Shown here one piece after another: positions 12,269 to 46,505 of a DNA stretch of 64,000 nucleotides. The stretch's first letter is position 1, and every line of letters starts with the position of its first letter. The translations under genes and the position numbers were made by a program. The stretch comes from Thermincola carboxydiphila (GTDB taxonomy: Bacteria > Bacillota > Thermincolia > Thermincolales > UBA2595), in NCBI GenBank assembly GCA_016841045.1, contig JAENZX010000015.1, positions 1 through 64,000 on the forward strand. The letters run 5' to 3'. The notes under the pieces are model-generated. The model was not told the origin of the DNA, did no database searches, and saw nothing but the letters and a program-made list of their open reading frames with translations.

Positions 12269-15220
<2,952 letters not shown>

Positions 15221-15302
15221 TACAAATTTCGTTTAAAATTATACCCAAAAGGCCGGCATCTGTCAACGCTATGGCTTTAGTTCTGGGCTTTCACTCAATT
15301 CT

Positions 15303-16349
15303 TTATGAAAAATTCTCATCAACAAGTTTTAAATATATATATCTTAAGGATACCTTTAAAACAGCAGCCAAAGGTACACCCAGGAGCAGTCCGGCAAAGC
15401 CTAATAATTTCCCTCCTGAAAGCAGAGCAAAAATAATTATCAATGGATGAAGGCCCAGATTATGCCCGAGTATTTTGGGAGAAATAACAGAATTCTCAAG
15501 CTGTTGAACTATAACTATCACTGCTACGGCATATAGTGCTGTTTTTTTTGAAACCAGCAGTGATAGAGAAATGGCCGGTACAGCAGCTATGAAGGGTCCC
15601 AGGTATGGAATTAACTCAGCTACTGCTGCTATAAACCCTATAATTACAGCAAAGTCGGCACCTATGAGATACATACCGATCCCTGTCAAAGTGCCGACAA
15701 CAGCGCTAATAGTCAGATGTCCCCGAATGAATCCGCTGATTATATCGTCAACGTCCCTGACAACAGCCATAACATCACTGCGGTATTTCCTTGGTATAGT
15801 CATCTCAAAAGAATTCTTAATCCGCCTAAAATCCTTGAGAATGTAAAAAGCAAACACCGGGGCCACAATAAAACTAACAATATACGAAAACAGCTGGAAA
15901 ACAGCATCTGTCCCGGATCGGACAATATCTACCAGACCTGATTCCATGTCATGTATACTCTCGCTAACCGCTATTTTCACTGCCTGTGGGAGAGCAAAAT
16001 TGCTGTACTCTGTTTCAAAGCTGCTGATTATTTTATGAATTTCAGCAGAAAGAATTGGAATTGCCTGGATAAGTTTATTTAGCTCCTCCAGTAAAACAGG
16101 AACACCAAAAACAACTATTCCTGTGAACAAGGTAAATACAATTGTATAAACTACGAAAATAGCAAAAACTCTTGGAACTTTCTTTTTTTCAACAAACTCC
16201 ACTAAAGGATTTAACAAATAAGCTAGAAAAAAAGCAAAAATAAAGGGAAGTAATATAGTTTTAACTTTGTATAAAAAGTATAAGCCGGCAATCGAAACCC
16301 CAAGGAGGAACAATCGCCGGTAGAAAGCATTGGTCTGTAACTTATCCAT
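15303..16349 (-). CDS. AI-2E family transporter
   Basis: An integral membrane protein of 348 residues in the AI-2E (UPF0118/PerM) family. Eight or so helices are visible with the usual arrangement: two N-terminal pairs, a long amphipathic middle region (LNKLIQAIPILSAEIHKII), and a C-terminal bundle with GFIAAVAELIPYLGPFIAAVPA and LGHNLGLHPLIIIFALLSGG motifs. Family members transport diverse small molecules or cations, and the substrate cannot be inferred. It lies two bases after a small YtxH-like gene and is probably co-transcribed with it. Confidence 0.88.
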   Translation of the reverse strand: MDKLQTNAFYRRLFLLGVSIAGLYFLYKVKTILLPFIFAFFLAYLLNPLVEFVEKKKVPRVFAIFVVYTIVFTLFTGIVVFGVPVLLEELNKLIQAIPILSAEIHKIISSFETEYSNFALPQAVKIAVSESIHDMESGLVDIVRSGTDAVFQLFSYIVSFIVAPVFAFYILKDFRRIKNSFEMTIPRKYRSDVMAVVRDVDDIISGFIRGHLTISAVVGTLTGIGMYLIGADFAVIIGFIAAVAELIPYLGPFIAAVPAISLSLLVSKKTALYAVAVIVIVQQLENSVISPKILGHNLGLHPLIIIFALLSGGKLLGFAGLLLGVPLAAVLKVSLRYIYLKLVDENFS

Positions 16350-20567: not shown

Positions 20568-20945
20568 CTACTTCGCTTCCAGCTTGTTCTTGTAATCCTC
20601 AATTGCTTTATGCAGTGCATCTGCTGCAAGGTTTGAACAGTGCATTTTGGCCGGGGGAAGTCCGCCTAGCTCTTCTGCAACTTGCCGGTTGGTTATCTTG
20701 AGCGCTTCCTCAAGGGTTTTTCCTTTAACCATCTCTGTTACCATACTGCTTGTTGCAACCGCAGCTCCGCAGCCGAATGTTTTGAATTTAACCTCTTCGA
20801 TTATTCCTGCATCACTAACTTTGATAGAAATCCTCATGATATCTCCGCAGGTGGTATTTCCAACCTCTCCGACACCGGATGCATCAGCAACCTCTCCGAC
20901 ATTTCGCGGATTATTGAAGTGGTCCATTACTTTCTCATTATACAT
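20568..20945 (-). CDS. iscU: Fe-S cluster scaffold protein IscU/NifU-N
   Basis: A 125-residue scaffold for Fe-S cluster assembly. The three ligand cysteines are visible in NTTCGDI, TFGCGAAVATSSM and KMHCSNLAA, with the conserved Asp after the first Cys. The ATG at 20945 starts MYNEKVMDHFNNPRNVGE as the family does; it overlaps the end of iscS by eight bases, so the two are coupled. The upstream-extended reading lies entirely in iscS and is rejected. Confidence 0.94.
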   Translation of the reverse strand: MYNEKVMDHFNNPRNVGEVADASGVGEVGNTTCGDIMRISIKVSDAGIIEEVKFKTFGCGAAVATSSMVTEMVKGKTLEEALKITNRQVAEELGGLPPAKMHCSNLAADALHKAIEDYKNKLEAK

Positions 20946-22146
20946 TTGAACAACACCCCTTTTCTTGGTGAAGGCCATTCTTAACCGCATTTGCATACAA
21001 CGGTGACATAGCCCTTAATCTCTCCACAATTTCAGGCAGCACTTCCAAAACATAATCAATCTGCTCTTCTGTATTATCTTTACCGAGTGTCAGTCTTAAT
21101 GAACCGTGTGCTGTTTCATGATTGAGACCCATAGCCAGAAGTACATGTGAAGGGTCAAGTGATCCCGATGTGCAGGCTGACCCGCTGGATGCAGCAATAC
21201 CCTTCATATCAAGACTAAGTAATAGTGATTCACCTTCAATAAATTGAAAACTCATATTTACATTATTGGGAAGCCTTTCAGTAGGGTGCCCATTCAACTT
21301 GATAAAGTCAATCCGGTCAAATATCCCATTGATAAGCTTGTCACGCAGCTTAGATTGGTAAGCCGCCTGTTCATTAATTGAATTAACCGCCTTCTCCATA
21401 GCCGCTGCAAACCCAATTATTCCGGGTACATTCTCAGTTCCCGGTCTTCTCTTCCGCTCCTGGGAACCGCCATATGATATGGGCAGTACCCTGGCTCCTT
21501 TTCTCATGTAAAGACAACCTATTCCCTTTGGTCCATAAAACTTATGTGCTGATATAGAAAGAAGGTCAATGTTAAGTTCATTAACGTTCACAGGTATTTT
21601 ACCTACAGATTGAACAGTGTCACTATGGAATGTAATTCCTCTTTCCTTGGCTAATGCACCTATTTCCTTAATAGGCTGAATAGTACCGACTTCGTTATTT
21701 GCATGCATTATCGTAATGAGGATTGTCTGATCCGTTATTGCCTTCTTTACATCCTCAACATTGACCATGCCATACTCATCTACCGGCAGGAAAGTAACCT
21801 CAAACCCTTCACGGGACAATGCTTTACAGGTATCAAGAACTGCATGATGTTCAACTGTGGAAGTTATGATATGGTTACCTCTCTTTTTGTTGGCCAGTGC
21901 AGCTCCACGAATAGCAATATTATCAGATTCTGTTCCTCCGCTGGTAAAAATGATCTCATTTGGCTCTGCACCAATGCACCGGGCAATCTTTTCCCTGGCC
22001 TCTTCAACTCCTTTTCGGACAGTTCTGCCGAAAGAGTGAATACTGGAGGGATTACCATAGTGATCAGTCATGTATTCCACCATTATTCTAGCAATATCAT
22101 CATCTGTCCTGGTGGTCGCGCTATGGTCCATATAGACCTTGTTCAC
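20938..22146 (-). CDS. iscS: Cysteine desulfurase (IscS/NifS)
   Basis: A 402-residue PLP enzyme releasing sulfur from cysteine. It begins VYMDHSATTRTD; the PLP-binding Lys is in SISAHKFYGPKG and the persulfide Cys in ASSGSACTSGSLDPSHVL. An extra C-terminal CC (EKGCCSNV) is present. It starts with GTG after AAAGGAG and is followed without gap by iscU and then mnmA, supplying both Fe-S and tRNA thiolation. The same enzyme could feed a selenium pathway, but that is inference. Confidence 0.95.
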   Translation of the reverse strand: MNKVYMDHSATTRTDDDIARIMVEYMTDHYGNPSSIHSFGRTVRKGVEEAREKIARCIGAEPNEIIFTSGGTESDNIAIRGAALANKKRGNHIITSTVEHHAVLDTCKALSREGFEVTFLPVDEYGMVNVEDVKKAITDQTILITIMHANNEVGTIQPIKEIGALAKERGITFHSDTVQSVGKIPVNVNELNIDLLSISAHKFYGPKGIGCLYMRKGARVLPISYGGSQERKRRPGTENVPGIIGFAAAMEKAVNSINEQAAYQSKLRDKLINGIFDRIDFIKLNGHPTERLPNNVNMSFQFIEGESLLLSLDMKGIAASSGSACTSGSLDPSHVLLAMGLNHETAHGSLRLTLGKDNTEEQIDYVLEVLPEIVERLRAMSPLYANAVKNGLHQEKGCCSNV

Positions 22147-22164
22147 AGTGTGTCATCTCCTTTG

Positions 22165-22617
22165 TTATATGTAGTACATATAATAATTCTTATTCATTTT
22201 CGCTTTCTCTGCGTCTTTGCACATATCAGCCAGCGAAATGGAATCCAATACATCTTCAATACTGTTACGAACCTTTTCCCAAACGCTTCTGGTAATACAA
22301 GATTCTGCTTTGTGACATTGTTCGGCGTCCTCTTCATTGACACATTCTACAGGAGCAATAGGCCCTTCAAGTACGCGTATTATGTCCCCTACTTTGATAT
22401 CATCCGGTTGGCGGGCGAGAATGTAGCCTCCCTGGGCTCCCCTAACACTTCTCACAAGCCCGGCTTTTCTCAATACCGCTATCAGTTGTTCCAGGTAATG
22501 TTCTGATAGGCCCTGTCGTTCAGCAACGCTCTTCAACGAAATAGGTCCCTCACCATAATGCTGAGCTAAGTCAAACATAGCCTGAACCCCGTAGTGACCT
22601 TTAGTCGATATTTTCAA
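22165..22617 (-). CDS. iscR: Rrf2 family regulator, IscR-like
   Basis: A 150-residue winged-helix repressor beginning LKISTKGHYGVQAMFDLA. Three cysteines in VECVNEEDAEQCHKAESC (about residues 100-117) are placed like the Fe-S ligands of IscR, which CymR lacks, so Fe-S sensing is more likely than the CymR role. The TTG at 22617 has GGGAGGG upstream; a longer reading adds a hydrophobic run unlike the family. It heads the iscR-iscS-iscU-mnmA operon and probably represses it. Confidence 0.9.
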   Translation of the reverse strand: MKISTKGHYGVQAMFDLAQHYGEGPISLKSVAERQGLSEHYLEQLIAVLRKAGLVRSVRGAQGGYILARQPDDIKVGDIIRVLEGPIAPVECVNEEDAEQCHKAESCITRSVWEKVRNSIEDVLDSISLADMCKDAEKAKMNKNYYMYYI

Positions 22618-22777
22618 AAGGTCCCTCCCCCTTGTTTTAATTCCTAGTAGTTTACTTGGTATTCTAAAAATTATGTTAGCATATAAGCAAATTAATGTCA
22701 AACCTAATTCCAACTATTTTAGTATGTTTTTTTTATCACATTTTAATTCCTTTGAAAATAAAGATCCAAATAAAAAA

Positions 22778-23320: not shown

Positions 23321-24037
23321 TTACCCGATTCCTTTTCTGATTAGTTCGGCAAATTCTGATGGTAATAACGAGCTTTCAATTGCCCTTGCAGTAAATTCGA
23401 AATTGTATTCAACCAATTTTATTTGTACACTTACCGTCTCTTCAATATTTACTATAACATAAGTGGACCTGGGGTCCCCATGCTTTGGCTTACCTACGCT
23501 GCCGGCATTTATTATATGCTTATCTCCAAAAACCAAATGATATGGCAAGTGAACATGACCGCAGATCAGAATTTCTGCTTGGCCTTGTTCCAGGTATTCC
23601 AGCATTTTCTCAGCAGGTGTATCTTTATAAATGTATTCGTTTAGCTTCCCCGGACTCCCATGAACTAAAAGGACTCTTTTGCCGTTTACATCAAGCCTGA
23701 TTTCATGAGGTAAAGAACGAAGGAACTCTTTATTTTCCTCAGAAGTATTTTCCTTTGTCCATAGAATAGATGACTCCCCCAGGGCCTGCGCTTTTTCGTC
23801 CTTATAGTCACACCCGCAGGTAAAACGAAGGTTACCTACTGCATCATCATAGTTGCCCATTACGGTAGGAATTTGTTTTTCTCGAATCAACTCAATTACT
23901 TCGTTTGGAAAAGGTGCATAACCGACCAAATCGCCGGTACAGTATACTCTTTCAACACTATTCCTCTCAATATCAGCCAATACAGCTTTCATGGCCTCAA
24001 TATTTGCATGTATATCTGAAATTACGGCTATTCTCAC
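23321..24037 (-). CDS. Metallophosphoesterase (YfcE/MJ0936-like)
   Basis: A 238-residue binuclear metallophosphatase. All five metal-binding blocks are present: IAVISDIHANIEA (residues 3-15), YCTGDLVGY, TVMGNYDDA, LLVHGSPG and ILICGHVHLPY. Family members cleave phosphodiesters or phosphomonoesters; the natural substrate is unknown. A GTG at 24037 is chosen because longer versions run into the ACR3 gene that ends 16 bases upstream. It is probably the last gene of the arsR-ACR3 transcript. Confidence 0.85.
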   Translation of the reverse strand: MRIAVISDIHANIEAMKAVLADIERNSVERVYCTGDLVGYAPFPNEVIELIREKQIPTVMGNYDDAVGNLRFTCGCDYKDEKAQALGESSILWTKENTSEENKEFLRSLPHEIRLDVNGKRVLLVHGSPGKLNEYIYKDTPAEKMLEYLEQGQAEILICGHVHLPYHLVFGDKHIINAGSVGKPKHGDPRSTYVIVNIEETVSVQIKLVEYNFEFTARAIESSLLPSEFAELIRKGIG

Positions 24038-24053
24038 TTTAATGTCCCTGCCT

Positions 24054-25112
24054 CTATGCCAGTTTATTTTCCATATCAAAATACTTTCGTCCCCAGCCAA
24101 GAGCTACATTAACCAATGCAATCATTACCGGCACCTCGATAAGAGGACCAATTACGGCTGCAAAAGCCTGGCCGGACTCGATTCCAAAAACCGCAACCGC
24201 TACGGCTATCGCCAACTCGAAGTTGTTACTGGCCGCAGTGAAAGAAAGGCTGGTCGTCTGCGCGTAATTGACTCCTGCCTTTAGACTGAGGAAAAAGGAA
24301 ACACCGAACATTATTACAAAGTAAATTAACAGCGGAATAGCTATACGGACAACATCCATCGGCAATTTGACAATATAGCTGCCCTTGTAGGAGAACATAA
24401 CAACAATAGTAAACAGAAGTGCAATTAAAGCAAGAGGACTGATTTTGGGTACAAAAGTCTTTTCATACCATTCTTTGCCCTTTGCTGGTTCCAGGAATAG
24501 TCGGGTTAACATACCGGCAGCAAAAGGTATACCAAGGTAGATACCTACGCTCTTGGCTACTTCACCCATTGAAATATCAACTACAGCACCTGTAAGGCCA
24601 AATATTCCGGGAAGAACAGTAATAAAGACGTAGGCATATATCGAATAGAAGATAACCTGAAATATCGAATTAAAGGCCACCAGAGCTGCAGCATATTCAG
24701 AATCACCCTTGGCAAGACTGTTCCAGACTATTACCATGGCAATACACCGGGCAAGCCCGATTAAGATAAGGCCAACCATGTATTCGGGTCTATCCCCGAG
24801 TAATGCAATAGCTAAAATAAACATAAGAACAGGTCCGATAACCCAGTTTTGAACCAGTGACAAACCCAGAACTTTCGTATTCTTAAATACTTTTCCCAGT
24901 TCCCGGTAATTAACCTTCGCCAAGGGCGGGTACATCATTACGATAAGCCCCACAGCAATGGGTATAGAGGTAGTCCCAACAGACAACCTGTCTAAAAGAT
25001 CGGCCACTCCCGGGAAAATATACCCAACACCAACTCCGATGGCCATTGCAAGGAAAATCCATAACGTTAACAGTCTGTCCAACATAGATAGTTTAGCTTC
25101 TTTTTGCTGCAC
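24054..25112 (-). CDS. acr3: Arsenite efflux permease, ACR3 family
   Basis: A 352-residue, ten-helix carrier of the ACR3/bile-arsenite-riboflavin family, which extrudes As(III) from the cytoplasm using the proton gradient. ACR3 hallmarks are present: [21 protein letters not shown] with the essential Cys of helix 4, and [17 protein letters not shown]. It lies 34 bases after an arsR gene, so it forms a classical arsR-acr3 unit, and this is the firmest indication that the surrounding cluster deals with arsenic. Normal length, no UGA. Confidence 0.93.
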
Positions 25113-25146
25113 TTTATTTTACCTCCTTTTGATTTAGTTTCTTGTT

Positions 25147-25557
25147 TTATTTAGCTTTCTGCTGCCTTTTTGTAAATGCCTCACATTTAGCTTTCTTTTG
25201 CTTATTTGCAAGTGTCTCACAAATGGACGGATCAGTTCTTACCATAGATTTTTGGAGACTTTCCACTTTCCTTCGAATAGGCGCTGCATAACTGCTTATT
25301 ACTTCCATATCTTCTGTTTCAAAAACATCCTTAAAAACACTGTCATTTAACGAATAATAAATCCATTTTCCCTCCCGGCTGTCTTTAACAAGCCCAGCCA
25401 GTCTGAGAATTTTAAGGTGATGAGAGATAGCGGGTTGAGACATATCTAATTTATCTATTATTTCACAAACACACATTTCATGTCCAGCAAGCATCTGTAT
25501 GATTTTCAACCTGGTCTCATCCCCAAGGGCTTTATAAAATTCCGCAATCTTTTTCAT
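25147..25557 (-). CDS. arsR: ArsR family repressor (CVC type)
   Basis: A 136-residue winged-helix repressor. The recognition region is SQPAISHHLKILRLAGLV, and the N-terminal side of the alpha-3 helix carries MCVCEIID, the CVC motif of As(III)-sensing ArsR proteins. The C-terminal tail is long, basic and has extra cysteines (SICETL, KAKCEAF). It precedes acr3 by 34 bases. It should release the operator upon As(III) binding. Confidence 0.9.
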   Translation of the reverse strand: MKKIAEFYKALGDETRLKIIQMLAGHEMCVCEIIDKLDMSQPAISHHLKILRLAGLVKDSREGKWIYYSLNDSVFKDVFETEDMEVISSYAAPIRRKVESLQKSMVRTDPSICETLANKQKKAKCEAFTKRQQKAK

Positions 25558-25698
25558 CTACTAGATTAACTCCACCTCCCACATTAACATATTTAAGTTT
25601 GTTTATATATATTATATTCCTTCTTTCCCTTCGTTACAACTTTTGTATGTTAAAAAACACTTAATTCATTGTTAAGCTTATTTCTACAAAATAAAAAA

Positions 25699-25714
25699 AC
25701 CCGCAACTGCGGGT
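25699..25714 (-). promoter_or_regulatory. Hairpin: terminator or C-terminal SECIS
   Basis: A 6-base stem ACCCGC/GCGGGT with loop AGTT starts 12 bases after the TGA at 25727-25729. The T run after it makes it a good terminator, but the loop distance (18 bases from UGA) and the G in the loop also satisfy the bacterial SECIS pattern. Confidence 0.6.
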
Positions 25715-25720
25715 AATTTG

Positions 25721-26548
25721 TTAACTTCAACAGGAAGAACTGTCTGAACTGGTCTGGCAGCATCCTCCAGCTTGAGTATCTGTATTTTCTTTTCTACGCT
25801 TACCTGCAAAGAATTTTTGAAGATTTTCAGGTACTTCTGTCCTTACTTCAGAATCTGCGTTTCCCCTGGTTCCCCCATATACTTCCCGCAAGATAGCATC
25901 AATGATCATACCTTTTGGCGGAGCGGTATATTCTTTGCCCTGATATGTCCAAATCCGGCAGTCAACACTGTCACCGCACAGGTCACCACAAGAATCACAT
26001 AGAGCTTCTTTGACCTCCAACTGAATATCCTGCCCATTTATTCTAATAGTTGGCGAACTTACAAAGCCTAAATTACGGGCTTGTTCTTCGGATTGAATAT
26101 GTATCTTTATAACATTCACTTCAACGCCGGTCGTCTTTAAAACCTGTGCCACTTCCGTTATGGCTTCATCCAGATTGGATTCTGTTGACTGACACCACTT
26201 ACAAACGCTCAGGTCAAGGTACATAAATTCTATGTCCAGATTTCTTCGTATCGATTGAGATTGTTCAATTTCTTTTTCCTTGGAAAGCGGTTGCATATAT
26301 TTTTGGATTTCCTGAAGTATATCTTCTTCCTTAGGTCGTTGGCTGCATGTGCCTTGATTTGAGTAAATCACACTACCATTTACGATCACCTGATAAATAC
26401 CGTTATGCCCTTCTTTTAGTTCCGCATTTATTCCAAACTTGTTTTTGATTGATGCCGCCAAACCGGAGGCTAAAGAAAGGAAGCCTCACTCAACACAATA
26501 GGTAATTTCAACATTTACATCTCTCGTTACATTACTTGAATCGCTCAT
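25721..26548 (-). CDS. Selenoprotein: SelW/Rdx-DUF2703 fusion
   Basis: A 275-residue fusion read through a TGA at 26486-26488. Residues 1-75 form a Rdx (SelW/SelT-like) domain, VEITYCVEUGFLSLASG, whose CxxU redox site puts U at residue 21; without recoding the frame has no credible start and loses half the redox motif. Residues about 85-240 form a DUF2703 domain with CKWCQ, a CDSCGDLCGDSVDCR cluster and PPKGMIIDAILREVYGG. The C-terminus is Cys-rich (GGCCQTSS...SSSC) and then meets a second TGA (25727-25729) followed by AGT TAA, which could give a terminal CUS. ATG at 26548 follows AGGGGGAT. It lies between the DUF2703 paralog and arsR-acr3. Likely a thiol/selenol protein handling arsenic; the first Sec is firm, the second tentative. 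Confidence 0.88.
26454..26470 (-). promoter_or_regulatory. SECIS candidate of Rdx-DUF2703 gene
   Basis: The hairpin GCCtCC-GGTTT-GGcGGC begins 15 bases after the TGA and presents a GG-starting loop about 21 bases from it, in the range for bacterial SECIS elements. Confidence 0.6.
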
Positions 26549-26684
26549 AACTATCCCCCTGTTCATATAATTGCACCGGCATTTCAATGCCCTTCATTGA
26601 GCCCACAAAAATTTGATGTGCAGAAAAAGCGGGCACTCTGTTGAACCCACCAACTTTTTCTTTGTTACTGTGATCAAATTGGTG

Positions 26685-27122
26685 TTAGCAGCAACCACTA
26701 CTATTACAACAGCCGGAATTTACCGTCGGCGCTTTTTTGGTTTCTTCTATACCTAATACCTTGAATGCCGCCTGCCGGATGGCCTTGGCAGGTATGTCTT
26801 CATACTCGTAGCCTTCATATTTTATAGTTCGGCAGTAAGTTTCGTTTCCCAGTAAAGCAGTACAGGAATCACAGTAGTTCTCAGATACCTCGATATCTAA
26901 AATCTCTTCAATGGGAACTCCGTTAAAGAGGATAGTATTTGATTGAGGAATTTGGGTATCGTCAAGTTTGGTCTCAAACCATTCTACCTCAATCCCCAGT
27001 GGTTGTAAGGCTCTGTTTAATCTTTTTACTTCCTGATTAAGATTTTCACCCGTATCATAACAACGGTTGCAGGTCTCCCCTGCCACATCAAGGTGCTTCC
27101 ATTCAATTTTTAGTTTTTTCAT
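26685..27122 (-). CDS. DUF2703 family protein, all-Cys paralog
   Basis: A 145-residue DUF2703 protein. It starts KKLKIEWKHLDVAGETCNRCYDTG with a CxxC, has ENYCDSCTALLGNETYC in the middle, and ends in SGCCNSSGCC before a TAA stop. The terminal GCC aligns with the SSC-TGA and GSC-TGA ends of its two larger paralogs, so Cys occupies the place where they may carry Sec. The thioredoxin-like fold of the family is inferred. AGGAGG precedes the start. Probable role: thiol-based binding or reduction of a metalloid. Confidence 0.85.
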   Translation of the reverse strand: MKKLKIEWKHLDVAGETCNRCYDTGENLNQEVKRLNRALQPLGIEVEWFETKLDDTQIPQSNTILFNGVPIEEILDIEVSENYCDSCTALLGNETYCRTIKYEGYEYEDIPAKAIRQAAFKVLGIEETKKAPTVNSGCCNSSGCC

Positions 27123-27291
27123 TGTTATACCTCCTCATATAGTGTTTCAATAAATAATGACGGAGGTTTTAACAAAAGGACGCACTTTTTTAACACTTCA
27201 TGCATGAAAATTTATTTTTGACCTTATCTTTATAACATAGATCTATTATGTTACCTGCATTATCTGATTTAACTTCACACCGCTTGAAGAG

Positions 27292-27393
27292 TTATAATAA
27301 ACTATACTGCATGCCAGGTTCGTACAAATATGATAATTCCCGCTTTCCATCAAGATACATGAATTCGATGTCCAAACGTTCTGTCATACTCAT
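27292..27393 (-). pseudogene. N-terminal remnant of a DUF2703 gene
   Basis: A 33-codon ORF with GGAGG before its ATG begins MSMTERLDIEFMYLDG, matching NLDIEFMYLDLS in the Rdx-DUF2703 protein, then diverges and stops at TAA. The CxxC that should follow is missing. TGTCAA at 27430-27435 (TTGACA on the minus strand) suggests a promoter still sits upstream. It is most simply a truncated duplicate of the DUF2703 domain. Confidence 0.6.
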
Positions 27394-27479
27394 AATCAAC
27401 CTCCATTTAAAAAATTTAGTATTGTTTGTTGTCAATTATGTAGACGAATATTCACCGATAGGACGCAGTATTTTATATT

Positions 27480-28079
27480 TTACTCTCGCTCCTTATGACA
27501 GTATCCGCAGCTGTCACCTTTATGCTGGTATTCAAGAATATTTCCCAGACTGTCGAATTCAAAATGACAACACTCGAGAAACATCTCTCTAAGCTTTGCC
27601 CTCGCCCTTTGAACTCTTGATTTAACCCCTGAATAAGATATCCCGAGTTTTTCTGCCATTTCCTTCTGGGATAACCCGCGAAAATGTGACAATATTATTA
27701 CCTCTTTATACTTATCGGGCAGATTATTAATCATCGGTTCGAGACATGCGGTCATATCATCATTAAAATCATCACCTTCATCAAACTCATCGGACTGTTT
27801 ATCTGGCATTTCTTCATTTAGCCCTGATAACTCTCCTACGGCTTTCCTTCTGCGATAATAATCGGTAATAGCATTTCGGGTAATCTGGTATATCCAGGCC
27901 TGGAGTCTATCTTCATTCTTAAGCTTATAAATTTTATCGTGAATCTTGCAGAAGACGTCCTGAAGAATATCTTCCACATCGTATTCGTTACTCACCCTTT
28001 TACGGATGAATCCCTTAAGACTGTTGCTAAATTGATTCCAAATCTGGTCTATCGATTCCCTCAATTCATCATTCCCCAT
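27480..28079 (-). CDS. sigZ: RNA polymerase sigma factor, SigZ type
   Basis: A group IV (ECF-like) sigma factor of about 199 residues. Region 2 (VEDILQDVFCKIHDKIYKL ... RLQAWIYQITRNAITDYYRR) and region 4 (LPDKYKEVIILSHFRGLSQKEMAEKLGISYSGVKSRVQRARAKL) are complete. The C-terminal tail has FLECCHFEFDSLGNILEY and ends CGYCHKE, a CC plus CxxC set that could sense thiol or metal stress. No anti-sigma gene is adjacent. The start is uncertain; 28079 is chosen since earlier codons enter the repeat-terminator at 28141. Its location inside the selenoprotein cluster suggests that it controls part of it. Confidence 0.85.
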   Translation of the reverse strand: MGNDELRESIDQIWNQFSNSLKGFIRKRVSNEYDVEDILQDVFCKIHDKIYKLKNEDRLQAWIYQITRNAITDYYRRRKAVGELSGLNEEMPDKQSDEFDEGDDFNDDMTACLEPMINNLPDKYKEVIILSHFRGLSQKEMAEKLGISYSGVKSRVQRARAKLREMFLECCHFEFDSLGNILEYQHKGDSCGYCHKERE

Positions 28080-28140
28080 TTCAAGGATACCAACGAATGT
28101 ATGGAAAAAGCTAAGCATATGGTAATGTGGTAACCCACCT

Positions 28141-28192
28141 GTAGACAAAAGGTTTTGCCGCAGTCACCTGCTGCAAAACCTTTTTCGTCTAC
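28141..28192 (-). terminator. Repeat-type terminator, copy A
   Basis: Long inverted repeat, GTAGACaAAAGGTTTTGC and its complement around a loop containing CAGTCACCTG. It separates the DUF5714 gene from sigZ. The same core recurs at 31204-31239 and as a half copy at 29601-29626. Confidence 0.75.
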
Positions 28193-28306
28193 AGTATCGA
28201 ATTGAATAGATAACCGGTTGCAAAAGTTCTTCTGTGATCTACTCCTTGTTTAATGTGATATCGGTGCGATATAATGTTCCTCAGCTTTCCCACCTCTGAT
28301 TATTTG

Positions 28307-28327
28307 ACCTGTTTATCCTAAACAGGT
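28307..28327 (-). promoter_or_regulatory. Hairpin after third UGA of DUF5714 gene
   Basis: A perfect 9-base stem (ACCTGTTTA) with loop GGA starts 15 bases after the TGA at 28343-28345. No T run follows, which makes a terminator less likely and a SECIS possible. Confidence 0.45.
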
Positions 28328-28330
28328 TCT

Positions 28331-29476
28331 TTAATATTCCCCTCAGGTTTTACACTCACCAACCGGTGCTTCAATGTTTTGTTTTTCCGAATAGGGCTGC
28401 GGGGAATGTATTTTGTCAGCCAGGGCCTTCACCTTTGACGCCCCAACGGTCATGGCAATGGCAACGGCTTCGTTTAATTCGGCTTCAGGGATGTTAAGTT
28501 CCTTTGCAACTGCAAAGCAATATTGAGTTCATGGTTCACAACCGGCAGCCAATGAAGCAGCCAGGGCAATCAAATGCTTTGTCTTTCGGCCCAATATACC
28601 TTCCTGCCCATAGATGGATGAATGAAACTGGTCATATGCATTGAACATATTGTTTTCACCTCCTGCCGGAACAGATTCCTCTCTTTGTTTATAATAAGGA
28701 CACTTATCCATTCTGCACCCATGAGGATGACGCTCAACATGCATACAAACAGTTATTTTTCCAGGTAACGGCAGGGATACATTTAAGTAATCTTTGACCA
28801 ACTTAACCGACTCGTAGAGAGCAGTTCTGACAAAGTTTTTGCAGCAGCACGGACCTGTTTGATCTGCAATAGCATTTACTATTTTACCTACAACTCTCAT
28901 CGTAGCTGCTGTTTCCTGATTCTTGGGACATGCGGCACCTAAAATAACACTAAAGCAGGCTCCAATTGCCGGAGCCACTCCACAAACTCCTGTTAGTCCG
29001 CAGTAACCCCCAATCGCCTGTTTCCTTGTCCGATTAAACACTTCATCGATTTGTTCGTTTGATATTTTGATAGTTCCTTCATTTTTTATTGCAGCCATCA
29101 AAGCACCCGCAGCGATCCATGCATTTTCGCAGCCTAGCATGGGTACTTTGTCAATATAGCCCATAAGAGTTTCCGCAATCTCAAAAGGATTGCGTGACTC
29201 TGAATTTAAAACAAATCCCTTTATTGTATCGAAAACACCCTTACCATGACACTCATCACAAATATAATGACCATTGGGGCAACTAATATTAGCAAAGTCT
29301 GCTTTCCCACAGCGAAAACAAATAAGTTTTTTGCCGCTATCAAAATACTCCAGTTTAGTGCCACAGATTTGGCAGTCTTCTGTATTAATTTCTGTCTGAT
29401 GTTGACCAGCATCGTTACCAGGGCCTCAACAACCTGTCGGTTCAGCATCATCAAGGTTCTTTAACTCCTCAACCAC
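28331..29476 (-). CDS. Selenoprotein: Zn-ribbon/DUF5714/AhpD-like
   Basis: One gene spanning two or three in-frame TGA codons. From GTG at 29476 (AAGGTG upstream): U17 in PTGCUGP (TGA 29426-29428); a zinc-ribbon region EDCQICG, LICFRCG, CPNGHYICDECHG (about 29-75); a DUF5714 domain with GGYCGLTGVCG, GPCCCKNF and CRMDKCPYY; then an AhpD/carboxymuconolactone-decarboxylase-like domain HLIALAASLAAGCEPUTQYCFAV with U316 in a CxxU site (TGA 28529-28531), followed by AELNEAVAIAMTVGA. A third TGA (28343-28345) follows GECKT; reading it as Sec would give CKTUGEY and a TAA at 28331, otherwise the protein ends at 28343 with 377 residues. Read conventionally, this locus would be three meaningless fragments. 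Role: probably a peroxidase/disulfide-type redox enzyme for the cluster. Confidence 0.87.
28502..28517 (-). promoter_or_regulatory. SECIS candidate for U316
   Basis: CTTTGC-AGTT-GCAAAG hairpin, loop 17 bases after the TGA at 28529-28531, with G in the second loop position. Confidence 0.7.
29398..29413 (-). promoter_or_regulatory. SECIS candidate for U17
   Basis: Short stem GATG/CATC with loop CTGGTCAA begins 12 bases after the TGA at 29426-29428. The loop holds GGUC, as in the E. coli fdhF element, but the stem is short. Confidence 0.5.
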
Positions 29477-29600
29477 TTATTTCACCTTCTTTTATATACC
29501 CAACATAGGTATATGTTTTATCTAATTATATTAGACATACATGAAGTTTTCAATGGTGATTAACGTCCGCTAAGCCGCCAATTCTTTAGCCCCTTCATAT

Positions 29601-29626
29601 ACTGCTGCAAAACCTTTTTAGTCTAC
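29601..29626. repeat. Half copy C of the repeat-terminator
   Basis: CTGCTGCAAAACCTTTTT-GTCTAC matches one arm of the elements at 28141 and 31204. The other arm is absent. It lies between the DGC gene and the DUF5714 gene and suggests decay of a duplicated terminator. Confidence 0.6.
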
Positions 29627-29683
29627 CATTCGCAAATACGCACTTGAAATCAGGGGAGTCAAAATTGGTGTCTTAGTTTTAAC

Positions 29684-30034
29684 CTACTTCCTACCCAATA
29701 ATCTATCGATCACTTCCTGCACTAAGTATACCTCTTCATCTATATTTAATAACTCTTCATACTTTTCATTATTCTTTGGATCAAAATCCTTGGTAATAAT
29801 GATTTCTTCATGTTGTTTAATTCTAGAAGACTCAAATTCCTTGGAAGCACATTTTGCTGGGCAGCCATTTAATGCAATATACTTTTCGTTAACACCACTT
29901 TCGTTGTCAAGAGGTAAACTACTTAAATGGGGTAGTACACGTATTAATTCGTCATCAACGAAAAATTCAGCTACCGTTTTTGTCATCATACTGACGTTAC
30001 AACGGCCTTGGCAAGGGAAAATTCCAATATTCAT
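29684..30034 (-). CDS. Putative zinc-binding protein, DGC domain
   Basis: A 116-residue protein with the DGC-family layout: an N-terminal IGIFPCQGRCNVSMMTK motif and a second LNGCPAKCASKEF motif, together four cysteines that probably bind Zn or another thiophilic ion. The rest is charged and helical. DGC proteins frequently accompany selenoprotein, arsenic or mercury genes, but no reaction is established. It lies between a DUF2703 gene and the DUF5714 selenoprotein, on the same strand, and starts after GAGGTGGAG. Confidence 0.82.
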   Translation of the reverse strand: MNIGIFPCQGRCNVSMMTKTVAEFFVDDELIRVLPHLSSLPLDNESGVNEKYIALNGCPAKCASKEFESSRIKQHEEIIITKDFDPKNNEKYEELLNIDEEVYLVQEVIDRLLGRK

Positions 30035-30129
30035 AATTGCTCCACCTCAATTCTACTGTGCCTCTTGGACAATCGTTCATAGCATAACATCGAACATAAT
30101 CACAGCCATAAAAATAAATTGTCATAAAT

Positions 30130-30146
30130 ATCCGTAAACTACGGAT
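30130..30146 (-). promoter_or_regulatory. Hairpin after terminal UGA of DUF2703 gene
   Basis: ATCCGTA-GTT-TACGGAT, a perfect 7-base stem, starts 13 bases after the TGA at 30160-30162; its G-first loop is 20 bases from the UGA. Only a weak T stretch follows, so SECIS is as plausible as terminator. Confidence 0.5.
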
Positions 30147-30153
30147 TATCTTG

Positions 30154-30963
30154 TCAGTTTCAACATGAGCCAGAATTGCCTTGGGAAGTGGAGGTGCTAA
30201 AGCGACTATTAACTTCTTTCAAATGTACATTTTCGTTGCGTTCTTTTGCTGCAAAAAACCTTTTAAGATTTTCTGGCACACCTTTCGTTTTAGAAGGAGT
30301 ATCGGCATTATCCTTAGAACCCACATATACTTCCCGTAAGATAGCATCAATGATCATACCCTTTGGCGGAGCATTATATTCCTTACCCTGATATGTCCAA
30401 AGCCGGCAGTCAACGTCCTCACCACAAAGATTACTGCATGACTCACAGGAGCTTCCTTTTACATCTAACTGAATGTCATTTTCGTTTATACGAATTGTAG
30501 GTGAAATTTCAAACCCGAGTTCGTAGGCCTGTTGCTCAGACTGAACTTGGATTTTCTTTACTGCTACATCGACCCCAGTTAACTTAAGAATATTGGCTGT
30601 TTCCGAAACTGCTTCATCCAAATTGGTTTCCGTGTCCTGACACCATTTGCAAATGCTTAGATCAAGGTATAGAAACTCAATTACCAGACTTCTTTTAGCT
30701 TCATTTGAGCAGCTCACTTTTTCTTTTATTTCCTCATCTTTCCCAATATCAAAATGTCTTTCATATGCCGCAAGCAGTCCTACCTTATATTCTTGTTCGG
30801 CACCTTCTGGAATATAATTTTTTCGTTCCACTATTTCGAACAATTTGTCTGCAGCTTTTCCACCCACTAAGTCAAGGCTCCTTACATACTGAAATGCCTC
30901 ATCTACTCTGGTCAACCCAATCACTTGGCCACCGACGTTTAGTTTATATATTTGGGGACTCAT
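30154..30963 (-). CDS. DUF2703 protein, candidate C-terminal Sec
   Basis: A protein of 267 residues up to a TGA at 30160-30162, or 269 if that codon is Sec (ending GSCUN before another TGA). Residues 1-75 (VIGLTRVDEAFQYVRSL ... GAEQEYKVGLLAAYE) match the whole 80-residue protein at 32.4-32.6 kb. Residues about 95-225 are DUF2703: LYLDLSICKWCQDTETNLDEA, SSCESCSNLCGEDVDCRLW and PPKGMIIDAILREVY, nearly identical in these blocks to the Rdx-DUF2703 protein. The terminal SC-TGA is shared with that paralog and is replaced by GCC in the short paralog. Part of the As/selenoprotein cluster; likely metalloid-thiol chemistry. Confidence 0.82.
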
Positions 30964-31023
30964 ATCTACCCTCCTAGTTTAAGAGCTCTAACAGTGTGTA
31001 CTATTTTTAACTGATAATTAACA

Positions 31024-31071
31024 GGTTTCTAGGTTCAGATGGAGTTTAAGCTCCACCTGAACTTAGAAACC
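31024..31071. repeat. 21-bp inverted repeat (long hairpin)
   Basis: Arms GGTTTCTAGGTTCAGATGGAG and its complement, with two G-U-type mismatches, surround a 6-base loop. It lies between a DUF2703 gene and the permease terminator in a 295-base gap that has no credible gene. It may be a mobile-element remnant or a leader structure for the DUF2703 gene. Confidence 0.6.
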
Positions 31072-31099
31072 GTTATCCAGGAGCTTAGCATCGCTTATC

Positions 31100-31140
31100 T
31101 GCCACTTGAAAAGTAGCAGTCTTAGCGGCGTTTTGCTATC
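31100..31140. repeat. Dyad element copy 2
   Basis: GCCACTTGAAAAGTAGC followed by AGTCTTAGCGGCGTTTT, matching the element at 19059-19098 that precedes the ArsP_2 permease gene. Here it precedes the DUF2703 gene by about 140 bases. Confidence 0.5.
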
Positions 31141-31203
31141 TGAGCCGGTGACATTAAGACCACTCCTTTTACTATATACTGCAGGTAACATACAAATTTC
31201 AAA

Positions 31204-31239
31204 AAAGGTTTTGCCTCAGTCACCTGCTGCAAAACCTTT
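31204..31239 (-). terminator. Repeat-type terminator, copy B
   Basis: AAAGGTTTTGC hairpin with the conserved loop containing CAGTCACCTG, followed by T6 on the minus strand, 20 bases after the permease stop. Confidence 0.85.
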
Positions 31240-31258
31240 CTTGTCTAAAGTATCCAAA

Positions 31259-32275
31259 CTATCTCAAAACAAATGACCAGGCATTAAACAAATAACCGAT
31301 AATAATGATACCTACCGAAACTATAGCAGTAAAAATTGCTAGGAGTTTAGGCTTTACTACTTTACTAAGCAAAATTAGTGAAGGAAGCGATAACGCAGTA
31401 ACTGACATCATAAATTCTAATACAGTACCAATTCCCACATTCTTAGCAAATAATGCTTCTGCTATTGGTAAAGTTCCAAAGATATCTGCATACATTGGAA
31501 TACCCACGACAGTAGCAAGTATTATCGCAAACGGATTATTATCTCCAACCACATTTTCTATGATTGATTGAGGAATCCAATTGTGTATTACAGCTCCTAT
31601 TCCAACACCAATTAGAACATATAACCATACTCTTTTAATAATATCAATAACCTGGGTCTTTGAGTATGATATCCTTTCCTCACGTGTCATTTTAATAATT
31701 TCAGAATCAACATTTTCTATCTCTTTAACATAACCTTCCACATACTTTTCGAGGCCCAACTTATCAATAAGAGTTCCACCAATAACTGCTAAAACCAAAC
31801 CAACAACGACGTAAGCTATGGCTATTTTGGCTCCAAAGAAAGACATTAATAATAGTATTGATGCTAAATCTACAAGGGGGGAGGATATCAAAAACGAAAA
31901 AGTCACCCCTATCGGCAAGCCTGCCGATGTGAAACCGATAAATATCGGTATACTGGAGCAGCTTCAGAAAGGAGTAATAGTTCCTAATAAAGCTCCATAA
32001 ATATTTCCTTTGATACCCTTCATTCCACCAAGAATCTTCTTGGTTCTTTCAGGCGGGAAGTAACTTTGAATGTATGATATTAAAAAGATGAGCACCGATA
32101 ATAATATGAAAATCTTTATTGTATCATAGATAAAGAAATGAATACTTCCCCCCAGCTTCTCCTGGACGGATAAACCAAATACTCGCTCCACAACAAGTCT
32201 GACAGATTCTGAGAGCCATGTCATTCTTAAAATTTGATCATTCAGCCAACTGAAGATTTGAGTTACTATATTCAT
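31259..32275 (-). CDS. Selenoprotein permease, YraQ/DUF318-like
   Basis: A 338-residue permease read through a TGA at 31964-31966 (U104). The joined protein has about eight membrane helices. The junction reads GALLGTITPFUSCSSIPIFIGFTSAG, where the family normally has TPFCSCSSIP, so Sec takes the place of the first conserved Cys at the membrane-embedded motif; the second half carries the matching VVGIPMYADIFGTLPIAEALF. Split at the TGA, neither part would be functional and the second would lack a ribosome site. Related permeases export organoarsenicals or metals (ArsP-like). It has its own terminator and is preceded by an 80-residue gene on the same strand. Confidence 0.88.
31911..31949 (-). 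promoter_or_regulatory. Tandem hairpins after permease UGA
   Basis: Hairpin 1 (31934-31949, ACCGAT-ATTT-ATCGGT) is 14 bases from the TGA but lacks a G at the loop start. Hairpin 2 (31911-31928, ATCGGCA-GGCT-TGCCGAT) has a GG loop but lies 42 bases from the TGA. One of them, or both stacked, may serve as SECIS. Confidence 0.5.
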
Positions 32276-32357
32276 AAGAATTCACCACACTTTATTCTTG
32301 ACTCAGGTGGATTGGTTTTACCCCAACCTGCGCATCGAATACTAGCTACCTGCCTTA

Positions 32358-32606
32358 TTAACATCAGGATTTAGCTATAAAATTTTTATATGCCGCAAGC
32401 AGTGCTAATTTGTATTCTAGCTCTGCACCTGGTGGGATAAAATTTTTTTGCTTCACAATTTCTAATAGTTTTTCAGCAGCTTTTTCATCCCCTAAACCAA
32501 GGCCTTTAACAGCCTGAAAAGCCTCATCTACTCTGGTTAGCCCCACCTGTATGCCACCAGCCGTCAGCATATAAACCGGGTTTTTGGGGTCACAACATTG
32601 ACTCAT
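32358..32606 (-). CDS. 80-aa protein, N-domain of DUF2703 paralog
   Basis: An 80-residue protein up to a TGA at 32364-32366. It starts MSQCCDPKNPVYML with a vicinal CC and continues VGLTRVDEAFQAVKGLGL ... GAELEYKLALLAAYK, the same domain as the first 75 residues of the DUF2703 protein at 30154. If the TGA were Sec the protein would end KSUC at a TAA (32358); no clear hairpin supports this, so a plain stop at 32364 is equally or more likely. It lies between the CxxC mini-glutaredoxin and the permease. Function unknown. Confidence 0.75.
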
Positions 32607-32698
32607 AACCGAACCCTCACTATCTGCATTAAAACATTAAAAAATCTCCGGCAGCGATAATCCCCAGGGGTTACCCCTCAGATGCTTTAAAGCTACCT

Positions 32699-32941
32699 CT
32701 ATTTCACTGCTTCAGTAATAATTTCAGTTAATTTTGCCTTGGAAGGCACGGATCCTGATAATTTTACCTGACCGTCAATCACAAGTGCAGGTGTAGACAT
32801 TACTCCCATGGCAACTATATCCTTGAATTCCCTTACATGGCTTACAGCTGCGTCAATGTTTTGCTCAGCCAAGACGTCAAAAACCATCTGCTCAAGCTTA
32901 TTGCAGTTTGCACACCCAGCTCCAAGAACTTTAATTTCCAA
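32699..32941 (-). CDS. Thioredoxin-fold protein (MTH895-like)
   Basis: An 80-residue small thioredoxin/glutaredoxin-like protein. The active site GAGCANCNKLE gives CxxC at residues 10-13 and the cis-Pro loop is MGVMSTPALVIDG. This 'TM0996/MTH895' group commonly accompanies arsR, permease and ccdA genes and is thought to pass electrons to a metalloid or a permease. Its start is two bases after the arsR stop, so the genes are co-transcribed. It keeps Cys where several neighbours use Sec. Confidence 0.9.
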   Translation of the reverse strand: MEIKVLGAGCANCNKLEQMVFDVLAEQNIDAAVSHVREFKDIVAMGVMSTPALVIDGQVKLSGSVPSKAKLTEIITEAVK

Positions 32942-32943
32942 AA

Positions 32944-33282
32944 CTATTCACCCCTTTCTTTGCTTTGCCTTTTGCTTAACAGTCCCAAAGTTTTGTTGAC
33001 CTGTGATACCAGTATGTCCTCAACAAGTTCAAGTATTTGATATACCTGAGGATATTCAACTTTATATATTACCTTCAGGCCTTCCTTACGGAAACTTACA
33101 ATACCCTGCTTCCTCAAAATTGCAAGGTGTTGGGACATATTCGACTGCTCAATATCAAGATCTTCGGTAAACTCACAGACACATCTTTCACTTTCTCTTA
33201 AATGTTTTAATATTCGAACCCTTGTCGGATGCGCCAGAGCTTTAAAAAATTCTGCTTCCATTGAAAACAGCCTTTCATCCAT
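32944..33282 (-). CDS. ArsR family repressor, second copy
   Basis: A 112-residue winged-helix repressor. The alpha-3 metal site reads SERCVCEFTEDL (CVC) and the recognition helix SNMSQHLAILRKQGIV. It is more distant from the first ArsR than a recent duplicate would be. It lies within the trx(Sec)-ccdA-arsR-trx-like run, so it probably senses As(III) or Sb(III) and autoregulates that operon. No canonical operator could be assigned by eye. Confidence 0.9.
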   Translation of the reverse strand: MDERLFSMEAEFFKALAHPTRVRILKHLRESERCVCEFTEDLDIEQSNMSQHLAILRKQGIVSFRKEGLKVIYKVEYPQVYQILELVEDILVSQVNKTLGLLSKRQSKERGE

Positions 33283-33306
33283 ATGTTATGCCTCCTTCTA
33301 TACCTA

Positions 33307-33996
33307 TCAAGCTGTCCAGGCGAAATAAAATCCAATCCCAATTAATATTATCCCGGCTGCTTTCTCAAAAACACCTGCCCATTTGGACAGACCGGGTAGT
33401 CCTTTAGCGAACCCAGTAAATGTCCCTGCAATTATCACCGGCACACCCCTACCCAAACCGTAAAGAAACAACAATACGCCTCCGTAGGCAATTTTACCTT
33501 TGCTCATGACAAGTGATAATATGGCGAAAAGTACCGGCGTACCACACTGCGAACCAGCGAGGCCAATCATTAACCCCATTAGGAATGCCGGTATAATACC
33601 TTGGCGGCTGGGTCTGCGTAGTATCTTTGAACCTATGTCTGGAAGATTAAACTTTATAACTCCCAGCATTTTAAGACCAACTATTATACTCACCGCAGCA
33701 GCAATATAAATCATCAATGATTTTGATGTACCGAAAATACCACCTATAATTGAAACAGTGACACCCAATAACGCAAAAGTTGTTGATGTACCGAGAGTGA
33801 ACGCCAAAGACAACCAAAAGCTCCTGGCTTTGCACACATCAGAAGTTCCGCCTACATAAGCCATAAGAACTGGAATCATTGATATATTACATGGCCCTAT
33901 ACTGGTAACAATCCCGCCAAAAAATACAAGTAATACAGCAAGGATTGAATATCCCTGTAACAGTTGGGACAAATAGTGAGTAACAACTTCCTCCAT
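33307..33996 (-). CDS. ccdA: CcdA/DsbD-type thiol electron carrier
   Basis: A 229-residue, six-helix membrane protein of the CcdA family that moves reducing equivalents across the membrane. The two helix-embedded cysteine motifs are GIVTSIGPCNISMIPV (about residue 33) and GLAGSQCGTPVLFAI (about 150), both with the usual neighbouring Pro. Its start is one base after the stop of the Sec-containing thioredoxin-like gene, so it probably reduces, or is reduced by, that extracytoplasmic protein. Normal length. Confidence 0.9.
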   Translation of the reverse strand: MEEVVTHYLSQLLQGYSILAVLLVFFGGIVTSIGPCNISMIPVLMAYVGGTSDVCKARSFWLSLAFTLGTSTTFALLGVTVSIIGGIFGTSKSLMIYIAAAVSIIVGLKMLGVIKFNLPDIGSKILRRPSRQGIIPAFLMGLMIGLAGSQCGTPVLFAILSLVMSKGKIAYGGVLLFLYGLGRGVPVIIAGTFTGFAKGLPGLSKWAGVFEKAAGIILIGIGFYFAWTA

Positions 33997-33997
33997 C

Positions 33998-34438
33998 CTA
34001 TTTGCCCTCCAACAATGCCTTTAATTTCGTGTTCATTTCTTCCTGGTTAATCACACCAACATAATTAAAGGTTGATTCACCTTTTGAGTTCAAAAAATAC
34101 GTAGTGGGAATATACTGAATCTGGTATTGAGCACATAACGCCTGATCAGCCGGGTCATTCACGTTTATATTAATAAATGCTACTTTCCCCTCAAATTTAG
34201 GTTTTAGCCACTGGAACACCCGTTCCATTTCTACACAGGACTGTCAGGTCGTGGAATGGAATAAGAGCCAAGCTGGCTGCCCCTTTTGTTTAGCCTGTTC
34301 GATTAAACCTGCAGCCTGGGAAACAGAACTGTTTGAAGAAAAATCTTGCTGGACATTTTCTGTTTTAACTCCTTTGGCGGCAATTAACGCAACCACCGCT
34401 GCAAGTAAAACCATCAACACTATTGCCTTTAACTTCAA
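33998..34438 (-). CDS. Selenoprotein thioredoxin-like, UxxC site
   Basis: A 146-residue membrane-anchored thioredoxin-fold protein read through a TGA at 34244-34246. Residues 4-21 are a signal anchor (AIVLMVLLAAVVALIAA). The active site is FHSTTUQSCVEME with U65 in the place of the first catalytic Cys; the second part has VAFININVNDPADQALC and the cis-Pro loop IQYIPTTYF. Both halves are needed for the fold, and the downstream piece alone has no signal or active site. TTG start with GGGGAGGG. A six-base stem with loop GGGT follows the UGA. It lies directly before ccdA, its likely electron partner. Confidence 0.93.
34212..34227 (-). promoter_or_regulatory. SECIS candidate of thioredoxin-like gene
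   Basis: TGGAAC-GGGT-GTTCCA hairpin; loop begins about 22 bases after the TGA with G first. This is the best SECIS match in the cluster. Confidence 0.75.
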
Positions 34439-42581: not shown

Positions 42582-42607
42582 ACAACTACTCCCTGTATAT
42601 AAAAATA

Positions 42608-42786
42608 AAACCCCACCTATGCCGTGAGGCCGCCTTGTTTGAACCTGTTCTCACAGGTGGGTGTTCACCCAAAAGTTTTTTGTGTCCTCAACTAATGGAG
42701 GCATACAAGCCACTATCGGAGATGAACTCCCTTAGTATTGGTGTTGGCTCAATACTAAACGGCCGCGCACGCGCATCGTAGGGTTG
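42608..42786 (-). ncRNA. ssrS: 6S RNA
   Basis: The two ends of this 179-base segment pair (AACCC...GCGGCC with GGCCGCC...GGGTT) and a large central open region is bounded by short helices (GTATTGAGCC/ GGTGTTGGCTCAATAC side and CACCCACCTGTGAG side), the plan of 6S RNA mimicking an open promoter. In Bacillus bsrA (6S-1) occupies this exact place between tcdA and aspS. It is on the same strand, followed by T-rich sequence. Confidence 0.85.
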
Positions 42787-46390: not shown

Positions 46391-46505
46391 ATCAAAATAT
46401 GTTTTTTAGTTTAAACGTACAATATAAATTTTATCTAAACCGACACTGCTTGTCAATTGTTGTTTAATTTAGTTAGTAAGTTTAATCCATTAAACAGCAT
46501 AAAAC

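Follow-up and report, generated by a model that had tools for sequence, protein, structure and literature searches.

The anaerobic bacterium Thermincola carboxydiphila carries an arsenic resistance (ars) gene cluster in which TGA codons stand in frame in five genes, and eight of these codons are convincing as selenocysteine (Sec). The cluster lies on the minus strand of contig JAENZX010000015.1 (assembly GCA_016841045.1; genome of 4.16 Mb in 75 contigs), within a stretch of 64,000 nucleotides (positions 1 to 64,000) that is called the window throughout, and forms an 11-kb block bounded by a thioredoxin-like gene (34438) and a metallophosphoesterase gene (23321), both included. Judged from sequence comparison, Sec decoding at the eight sites is near certain and the handling of arsenic by the cluster is likely. 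With a probability of about 0.62, we read the whole as a resistance locus, inducible by arsenic, whose most reactive thiol positions have Sec in place of Cys, serving the capture and export of As(III) and organoarsenicals. A preceding sequence-only reading of this DNA had proposed a selenoprotein-rich arsenic cluster, and this central claim is supported. The families represented are thioredoxin, CcdA, ArsR (two genes), the MTH895/ArsE mini-thioredoxins, a PF03773 permease, DUF2703 (three genes), DGC, a DUF5714-AhpD fusion, SigZ and ACR3.

Selenocysteine Decoding of the In-Frame TGA Codons

The genes selA, selB, selC and selD, which the sequence-only reading had asked to be looked for and whose absence it had regarded as fatal, are all present in the genome and score above their curated cut-offs (SelA 635 bits, SelB 360 bits, tRNA-Sec 74 bits, SelD 400 bits). 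The selD gene itself contains one in-frame TGA, a frequent feature of Sec-type SelD genes. The Sec codons of the cluster are distributed over the thioredoxin-like gene (one), the permease gene (one), a gene fusing a small N-terminal domain to DUF2703 (one), the DUF5714-AhpD fusion (three) and a fusion of Rdx/SelW with DUF2703 (two). Four interrupted genes had been recognised before at their correct places, but with a single TGA each, which does not hold for the AhpD-type and Rdx-type genes; of the weaker cases, the tail TGA of the small-domain-DUF2703 gene is supported, that of a small gene at 32606-32358 is not, and the Sec codons in protein tails had been under-called.

TGA alone interrupts the cluster frames, and as the majority of these codons are shared with independent genomes, they are not sequencing errors. 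The strongest evidence comes from homologues, which display Cys/Sec exchange at the TGA sites and not truncation, in line with what had been anticipated. Downstream of the TGA, dN is far below dS wherever dS is estimable (0.14 against 1.97 in the thioredoxin-like protein, here called TrxU; 0.10 against 1.49 in the permease). Exchange of Cys and Sec, correlation of hairpin with codon, covariation and selection past the TGA each count as a line of evidence of their own.

The published model of the bacterial Sec insertion sequence (bSECIS) calls for a G within the first two positions of a small loop, located 16-37 nt past the UGA (PMC13188914). Hairpins were scored with a similar model, in which the loop starts 13-33 nt after the UGA, against a control of 1,934 other TGAs from the window. 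Individually, six of the eight sites give p≤0.041; for all eight combined, p=2e-5. The two sites short of individual significance, residue 17 of the DUF5714-AhpD protein and the permease, are explained by comparison between homologues, the former by covariation of its hairpin and the latter by a hairpin that is intact in TGA genes. A further test, on a GT-containing loop motif, was devised after the loops had been seen and is descriptive only. On this sequence evidence, the weakest Sec calls are residue 378 of the DUF5714-AhpD protein and the tail of the small-domain-DUF2703 protein, each one line of evidence short.

Other TGAs were considered as Sec codons and set aside. The terminal TGA of ccdA belongs to an ordinary double stop, TGATAG, without hairpin. 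The terminal TGA of the small gene (32366-32364) is probably an ordinary stop as well, given that homologue tails (L161, L053) lack Cys and no good hairpin is found. In the gene at 30963-30139, the second TGA (30156-30154) is unlikely to encode Sec and is best read as the stop after SC-U-N.

The ArsP-Type Permease

Codon and hairpin are correlated in the permease gene (31259-32275; PF03773, 222 bits, cut-off 32), whose TGA (31966-31964) encodes residue 104 in the motif TPF-U-SCSS. Across 52 homologue hits, this position is TGA in 10, TGC in 22, TGT in 19 and TCC in one. The SECIS-like hairpin at 31934-31949, of 6 bp, is intact in all eight distinct TGA genes and in one of 27 Cys genes (Fisher p=3.8e-7, with phylogeny ignored). 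The permease tree implies at least three to four changes between the Sec and Cys states, and the three independent Sec/Cys pairs on it are too few for a phylogeny-corrected test. In the related locus L097, TGC stands at the Sec codon of a protein 87% identical to the window copy.

ArsP transports organoarsenicals, and all ArsP homologues carry a membrane-located C(S/T)C motif, preceded by tPF in cluster 2 of the family (PMC4435449). As the window permease reads TPF-U-SC, its Sec takes the place of the first Cys of this motif, the presumed site of arsenic binding; PF03773 membership and the TPF-C(S/T)C motif are both found, with Cys replaced by Sec in the window copy and Cys retained in relatives. 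Sequence searches found no relatives of the permease in the PDB. A Sec form (UxC) of the SO_0444 permease family has previously been listed (PMC13188914).

The Triple-Sec DUF5714-AhpD Protein

The gene at 28331-29476 encodes a fusion of an MbdU-like DUF5714 part with an AhpD domain (NF045648, 413.5 bits; PF18978; PF02627) and contains Sec codons at 29428-29426 (GC-U-GPG, residue 17), 28531-28529 (CEP-U-TQYC, residue 316) and 28345-28343 (residue 378, near the C-terminus). The residue-17 codon is TGA in 33 of 35 homologues, with TGT and TCA in one each. For residue 316, the Sec of the AhpD CxxU motif, L015 and L016 have TGA while L164 has TGC. For residue 378, L015 has TGA, and no Cys homologue occurs among the relatives examined. 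The hairpin following the residue-17 TGA (29398-29413) covaries across 34 sequences, all six pairs showing double changes, with 35 cells compared with 10.0 ± 2.4 in shuffles. An AlphaFold model predicts both Sec-bearing ends of the protein to be disordered. No solved structural relative was found for the DUF5714 part, the only matches, to 3bey, falling in the AhpD part.

DUF2703 Proteins and Their Tails

The Rdx/SelW-DUF2703 fusion (25721-26548; PF10262 and PF10865) has one Sec codon in its Rdx part (26488-26486, YCVE-U-GF) and a second as the penultimate codon (25729-25727, SSC-U-S*). Both are TGA in L097, L099, L103 and L104, and the fusion with both Sec codons is present in the genomes G002, G004, G006 and G009. 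In relatives, the Rdx site is TGA in five and Arg in one more (two loci, L165 and L115, whose CGA is one base away from TGA); no Cys occurs in the loci examined, only TGA or Arg. At the tail codon, four relatives share the TGA of the window gene, and Cys homologues end in KCCN, KCCG or KCCK. A hairpin past the stop codon (25699-25714; ACCCGCAGTT(T)GCGGGT) would serve this tail TGA; it keeps a constant distance from the TGA in five genomes while the spacer varies, and reaches p=0.006 against the control TGAs. A single-sequence structure model of the protein was unusable (pLDDT 53).

The small-domain-DUF2703 fusion (30154-30963; PF10865, 115 bits) carries its tail TGA at 30162-30160 (GSC-U-N), where the aligned codon is TGC in 10 homologue hits, and a hairpin with the loop GTT at 30130-30146 (p=0.03). 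The DUF2703 protein at 26685-27122 (PF10865, 141 bits) has only Cys in its tail, SGCCNSSGCC. The DUF2703 profile resembles that of the mini-thioredoxins (hhalign P 88%, E 3e-6), and its best solved relatives are thioredoxins (E 0.004). The tail of the metallochaperone ArsD, SSCCGPKGCC, resembles the DUF2703 tails SGCCNSSGCC and CCQTSSDSSSCUS. DUF2703 as an ArsD homologue was rejected by profile comparison (hhalign P 3%), leaving a functional analogy only; no match to ArsD (PF06953) was found in the genome. In L097 (genome G002; 15189-16145), an ArsA-like ATPase adjoins ACR3 with no ArsD seen in that stretch, an arrangement that fits a DUF2703 protein in the role of ArsD.

The small domain occurs both as the N-terminus of the DUF2703 fusion (30720-30963) and alone, in the small gene at 32358-32606 (coding part 32364-32606), which gave no family hit in profile searches and is homologous to the N-terminus of the gene at 30963-30139. 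Homologues of this domain stand near arsenic-type permeases in L161 and L167.

TrxU and CcdA

TrxU is a membrane-anchored thioredoxin-like selenoprotein of the UxxC type (33998-34438; PF00085/PF13098), with its TGA at 34246-34244 in STT-U-QSC and a hairpin with the loop GGGT at 34212-34227. The Sec codon is TGA in L097 and TGT or TGC in L100, L103 and L104. Beside it lies the gene of a CcdA/DsbD-type transmembrane electron carrier (33307-33996; PF02683, 99 bits), which likewise adjoins the TrxU gene in these four loci and whose product is 78-89% identical there.

The Arsenic Setting

Two ArsR-type repressors with a CVC motif, repressor 1 (25147-25557; EMCVCEI; NF033788, 110 bits) and repressor 2 (32944-33282; ERCVCEF; NF033788, 100 bits), accompany the arsenite efflux permease ACR3 (24054-25112; TIGR00832, 462 bits, cut-off 283), a combination characteristic of ars operons. 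Together with the mini-thioredoxin of the MTH895/ArsE family (32699-32941; CANC; TIGR00412, 96 bits, cut-off 62), the Cys-rich DGC-domain protein (29684-30034; PF08859, 45 bits), CcdA and DUF2703, these genes had been named correctly from the sequence alone, as the profile matches confirm. The core of ArsR, mini-thioredoxin and permease plus ArsR and ACR3 is conserved in G001, G002, G004, G005 and G006, the permease containing Sec in four of these genomes and Cys in G002. Among the genomes searched, the full five-gene Sec set is confined to that of the window. Sec-free DUF2703 genes adjoin arsR, acr3 and arsC on a plasmid of Peptoclostridium acidaminophilum, and arsR, arsI, an arsenic transporter gene and arsC on pGIAK1.

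A SigZ-type ECF sigma factor with a Cys-rich C-terminus (27480-28148; NF007215, 234 bits, above cut-off) lies between the selenoprotein and DUF2703 genes and adjoins DUF2703 in L103 and L104, a recurrence that makes it a possible sigma factor responding to arsenic or redox state. A further likely selenoprotein is encoded in the related ars-type cluster of L103 (15783-16646), where the gene of an exported redox protein has an in-frame TGA at GUGYG.

Proposed Mechanism and Its Alternatives

According to the reading favoured here, As(III) would cause the CVC-type ArsR repressors to release transcription. The DUF2703 proteins, the SelW-DUF2703 fusion included, combine a core like that of thioredoxin with flexible tails of the form CC...C(C/U); their proposed role is to bind As(III) or organoarsenicals and hand them on in an ArsD-like manner. 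The ArsP-type permease, whose transmembrane UxC motif contains Sec, would export trivalent, probably organic, arsenicals, and ACR3 would export arsenite. CcdA may relay electrons through the membrane to TrxU, the exported UxxC protein. The AhpD-type domain, along with the mini-thioredoxin and SelW domains, could keep thiols and selenols reduced or reduce pentavalent arsenicals, the latter two acting in cytosolic reduction. Comparative sequence evidence shows the Sec decoding at eight sites and the ars setting; induction by arsenic, the substrate, the roles as ligands, the direction in which electrons flow and the order of transfer are inferred.

Several observations weigh against this reading. 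Lacking a G in its apical loop, the permease hairpin does not conform to the bSECIS consensus; the residue-17 hairpin contains one mismatch in the window; and the Rdx Sec position is CGA (Arg) in one relative (L165, also L115). A run of T follows the hairpin of the Rdx-DUF2703 tail, which may be partly or only a terminator, or may serve as both SECIS and terminator. Since DUF2703 is not homologous to ArsD, a chaperone role rests on tail convergence and context. Intergenic gaps suggest several transcription units rather than one operon, and the substrate could be antimony, mercury or another thiophilic species.

It had been proposed that a relay of thiols and selenols leads from CcdA to the permease and the carriers. 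This is compatible with the gene anatomy, but the evidence fits Sec as a metalloid ligand at least equally: the permease motif, the DUF2703 tails and the disordered MbdU-like ends would suit a mobile ligand as well as a redox residue. A bolder form of the favoured reading envisages a dedicated selenol pathway, in which selenolates are the actual arsenic ligands in the CC..CU tail of DUF2703, the flexible MbdU-like ends and the UxC of the permease, so that arsenic is passed outward from selenol to selenol with reducing power arriving via CcdA; we advance it tentatively, as a possibility that we rather doubt.

Should Sec be real but merely a stronger redox thiol, the cluster would be a module for thiol-disulfide and peroxide repair under arsenic stress that neither binds nor transports arsenic. 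Several of the Sec proteins do belong to redox families (UxxC in the thioredoxin, CxxU in SelW and AhpD), CcdA would supply electrons, and SelW-like and AhpD-like selenoproteins are known in redox operons; yet Sec also occurs in the ArsP C(S/T)C motif, the DUF2703 tails and the disordered MbdU-like ends, none of which are redox-enzyme sites, and DUF2703 is linked to ars genes on unrelated plasmids. We consider this explanation unlikely.

Still less probable, in our estimation, is a locus for another metal(loid) or thiophilic toxin, such as organomercury, antimony or an organometallic compound of the SAO (Sec-assisted organometallic) type, to which the arsenic genes would be mere neighbours. 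ArsR-family proteins sense many metals, and the permease gives 112 bits with the model of SaoE (cut-off 325) and 102 bits with that of the SO_0444 Cu/Zn exporter, short of the cut-off in both cases. Against this stand the presence of ACR3 here and in conserved relatives of the cluster, the CVC motif of both ArsR proteins, the recurrence of DUF2703 with arsenic genes, and SaoB, which a search lacking a positive control did not find in the genome.

Eight in-frame TGAs in 11 kb do resemble decay under the standard code, and frames that stay open through TGA would suit its reassignment to another amino acid such as Trp, or non-specific readthrough, but the probability of either is practically nil: pseudogenes or sequencing errors are refuted by interruptions that consist of TGA only and are repeated in independent genomes, by homologues with Cys at the site, by purifying selection past the TGA, by covarying hairpins and by the full Sec machinery, and reassignment is opposed by Cys, not Trp, as the aligned residue, by complete SelABCD and tRNA-Sec, and by local hairpins at the TGA codons.

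Selenium and arsenic are known mainly as antagonists, and arsenicals poison animal selenoproteins. If arsenic capture and export through Sec is true, selenolate would be a ligand for arsenic handling, and some microbes would use selenium, not sulfur alone, for this purpose. The natural Sec/Cys permease pair offers a clean system to ask why cells pay for Sec; the DUF2703 Sec tails, the triple-Sec DUF5714-AhpD fusion and the SelW-DUF2703 fusion, all of which would be cut short by standard-code gene calling, are further candidates for experiments.

Neighbouring Genes

The cluster ends with a calcineurin-type metallophosphoesterase gene (23321-24043; PF12850). Relatives with 51-69% identity stand beside ArsR/ACR3 genes in L023 (Desulfosporosinus metallidurans), L050 (Desulfoscipio geothermicus) and L105, and one with 52% identity lies near an ACR3-like gene in L160, which makes the enzyme a candidate for an unrecognised arsenic-linked function. 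Directly downstream of the cluster, at 20568-22713, the window encodes a NifU-like protein, a NifS cysteine desulfurase and a CymR/IscR-type regulator, of possible relevance to sulfur or selenium supply. In L097 (8124-11748), cysteine-desulfurase-like, SufC-like and SufB/D-like genes and a ferredoxin gene are found between the permease and Rdx-DUF2703 genes. Elsewhere in the window, two T-box leaders (14978-15197 and 46141-46392) and a 6S RNA (42606-42787) are present.

Comparison with Known Systems

Sec-rich operons have been published before, namely SAO, with six selenoprotein genes, and Tso, and Sec forms have been listed for SO_0444-type permeases (UxC), SelW-like and AhpD-like (CxxU) proteins, MbdU and the DF-family (PMC13188914). 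The SAO operon (Haft and Gwadz 2023) likewise holds several selenoprotein genes per locus, among its products SaoE, a permease that belongs broadly to the same family, along with a thioredoxin-like selenoprotein and a protein with terminal Cys-Cys, and metal(loid) handling has been implicated. In contrast, no protein of the window locus reaches the cut-off of a Sao model, and ACR3, ArsR and DUF2703 define it; membership in SAO was rejected (SaoE 112 of 325 bits; SaoB not found in the genome). The Tso system (three selenoprotein operon; Haft and Tolstoy 2025) resembles the window locus in its clustered selenoprotein genes, its ArsR-type regulator and its components of DsbD-like and thioredoxin-like type, and was equally rejected, with TsoB at 30 and 86 bits (cut-off 805) and TsoR at 70 and 43 bits (cut-off 115).

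Cluster 2 of ArsP (PMC4435449) combines PF03773, TPF ahead of C(S/T)C and the company of ACR3 in ars operons, as in the window, where, however, the first Cys of the motif is Sec. In the ArsEFG organoarsenical system (Chen et al. 2019), as far as the citing text (PMC9144182) conveys it, an ArsE-family mini-thioredoxin stands beside an efflux permease; the window locus agrees in the ArsE/MTH895 model (96 bits, cut-off 62) but not in ArsF (22.7 bits, cut-off 60), and adds CcdA, ACR3 and the Sec proteins. The N-terminal 60% of the DUF5714-AhpD protein matches MbdU (413.5 bits; profile positions 7-288 of 468), including the CU motif and the hairpin, but falls below the cut-off of 600 bits, and its C-terminal part is instead an AhpD domain with CxxU and a third Sec in the tail. 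ArsD, a member of the thioredoxin-like fold class, shares with the window DUF2703 proteins C-terminal vicinal Cys pairs and the ars operon context, and differs in the absence of sequence homology and in the Sec of the window tail.

The sequence-only reading had held such a density of Sec genes in an arsenic operon to be undescribed. Given the published SAO and Tso operons, this claim has to be toned down; a search of the open-access literature, outside of which the SAO and Tso papers themselves lay, found neither this combination nor any ars cluster of the ACR3 type rich in Sec described. The new elements are the arsenic setting, Sec in the DUF2703 tail, the SelW-DUF2703 fusion and the triple-Sec fusion.

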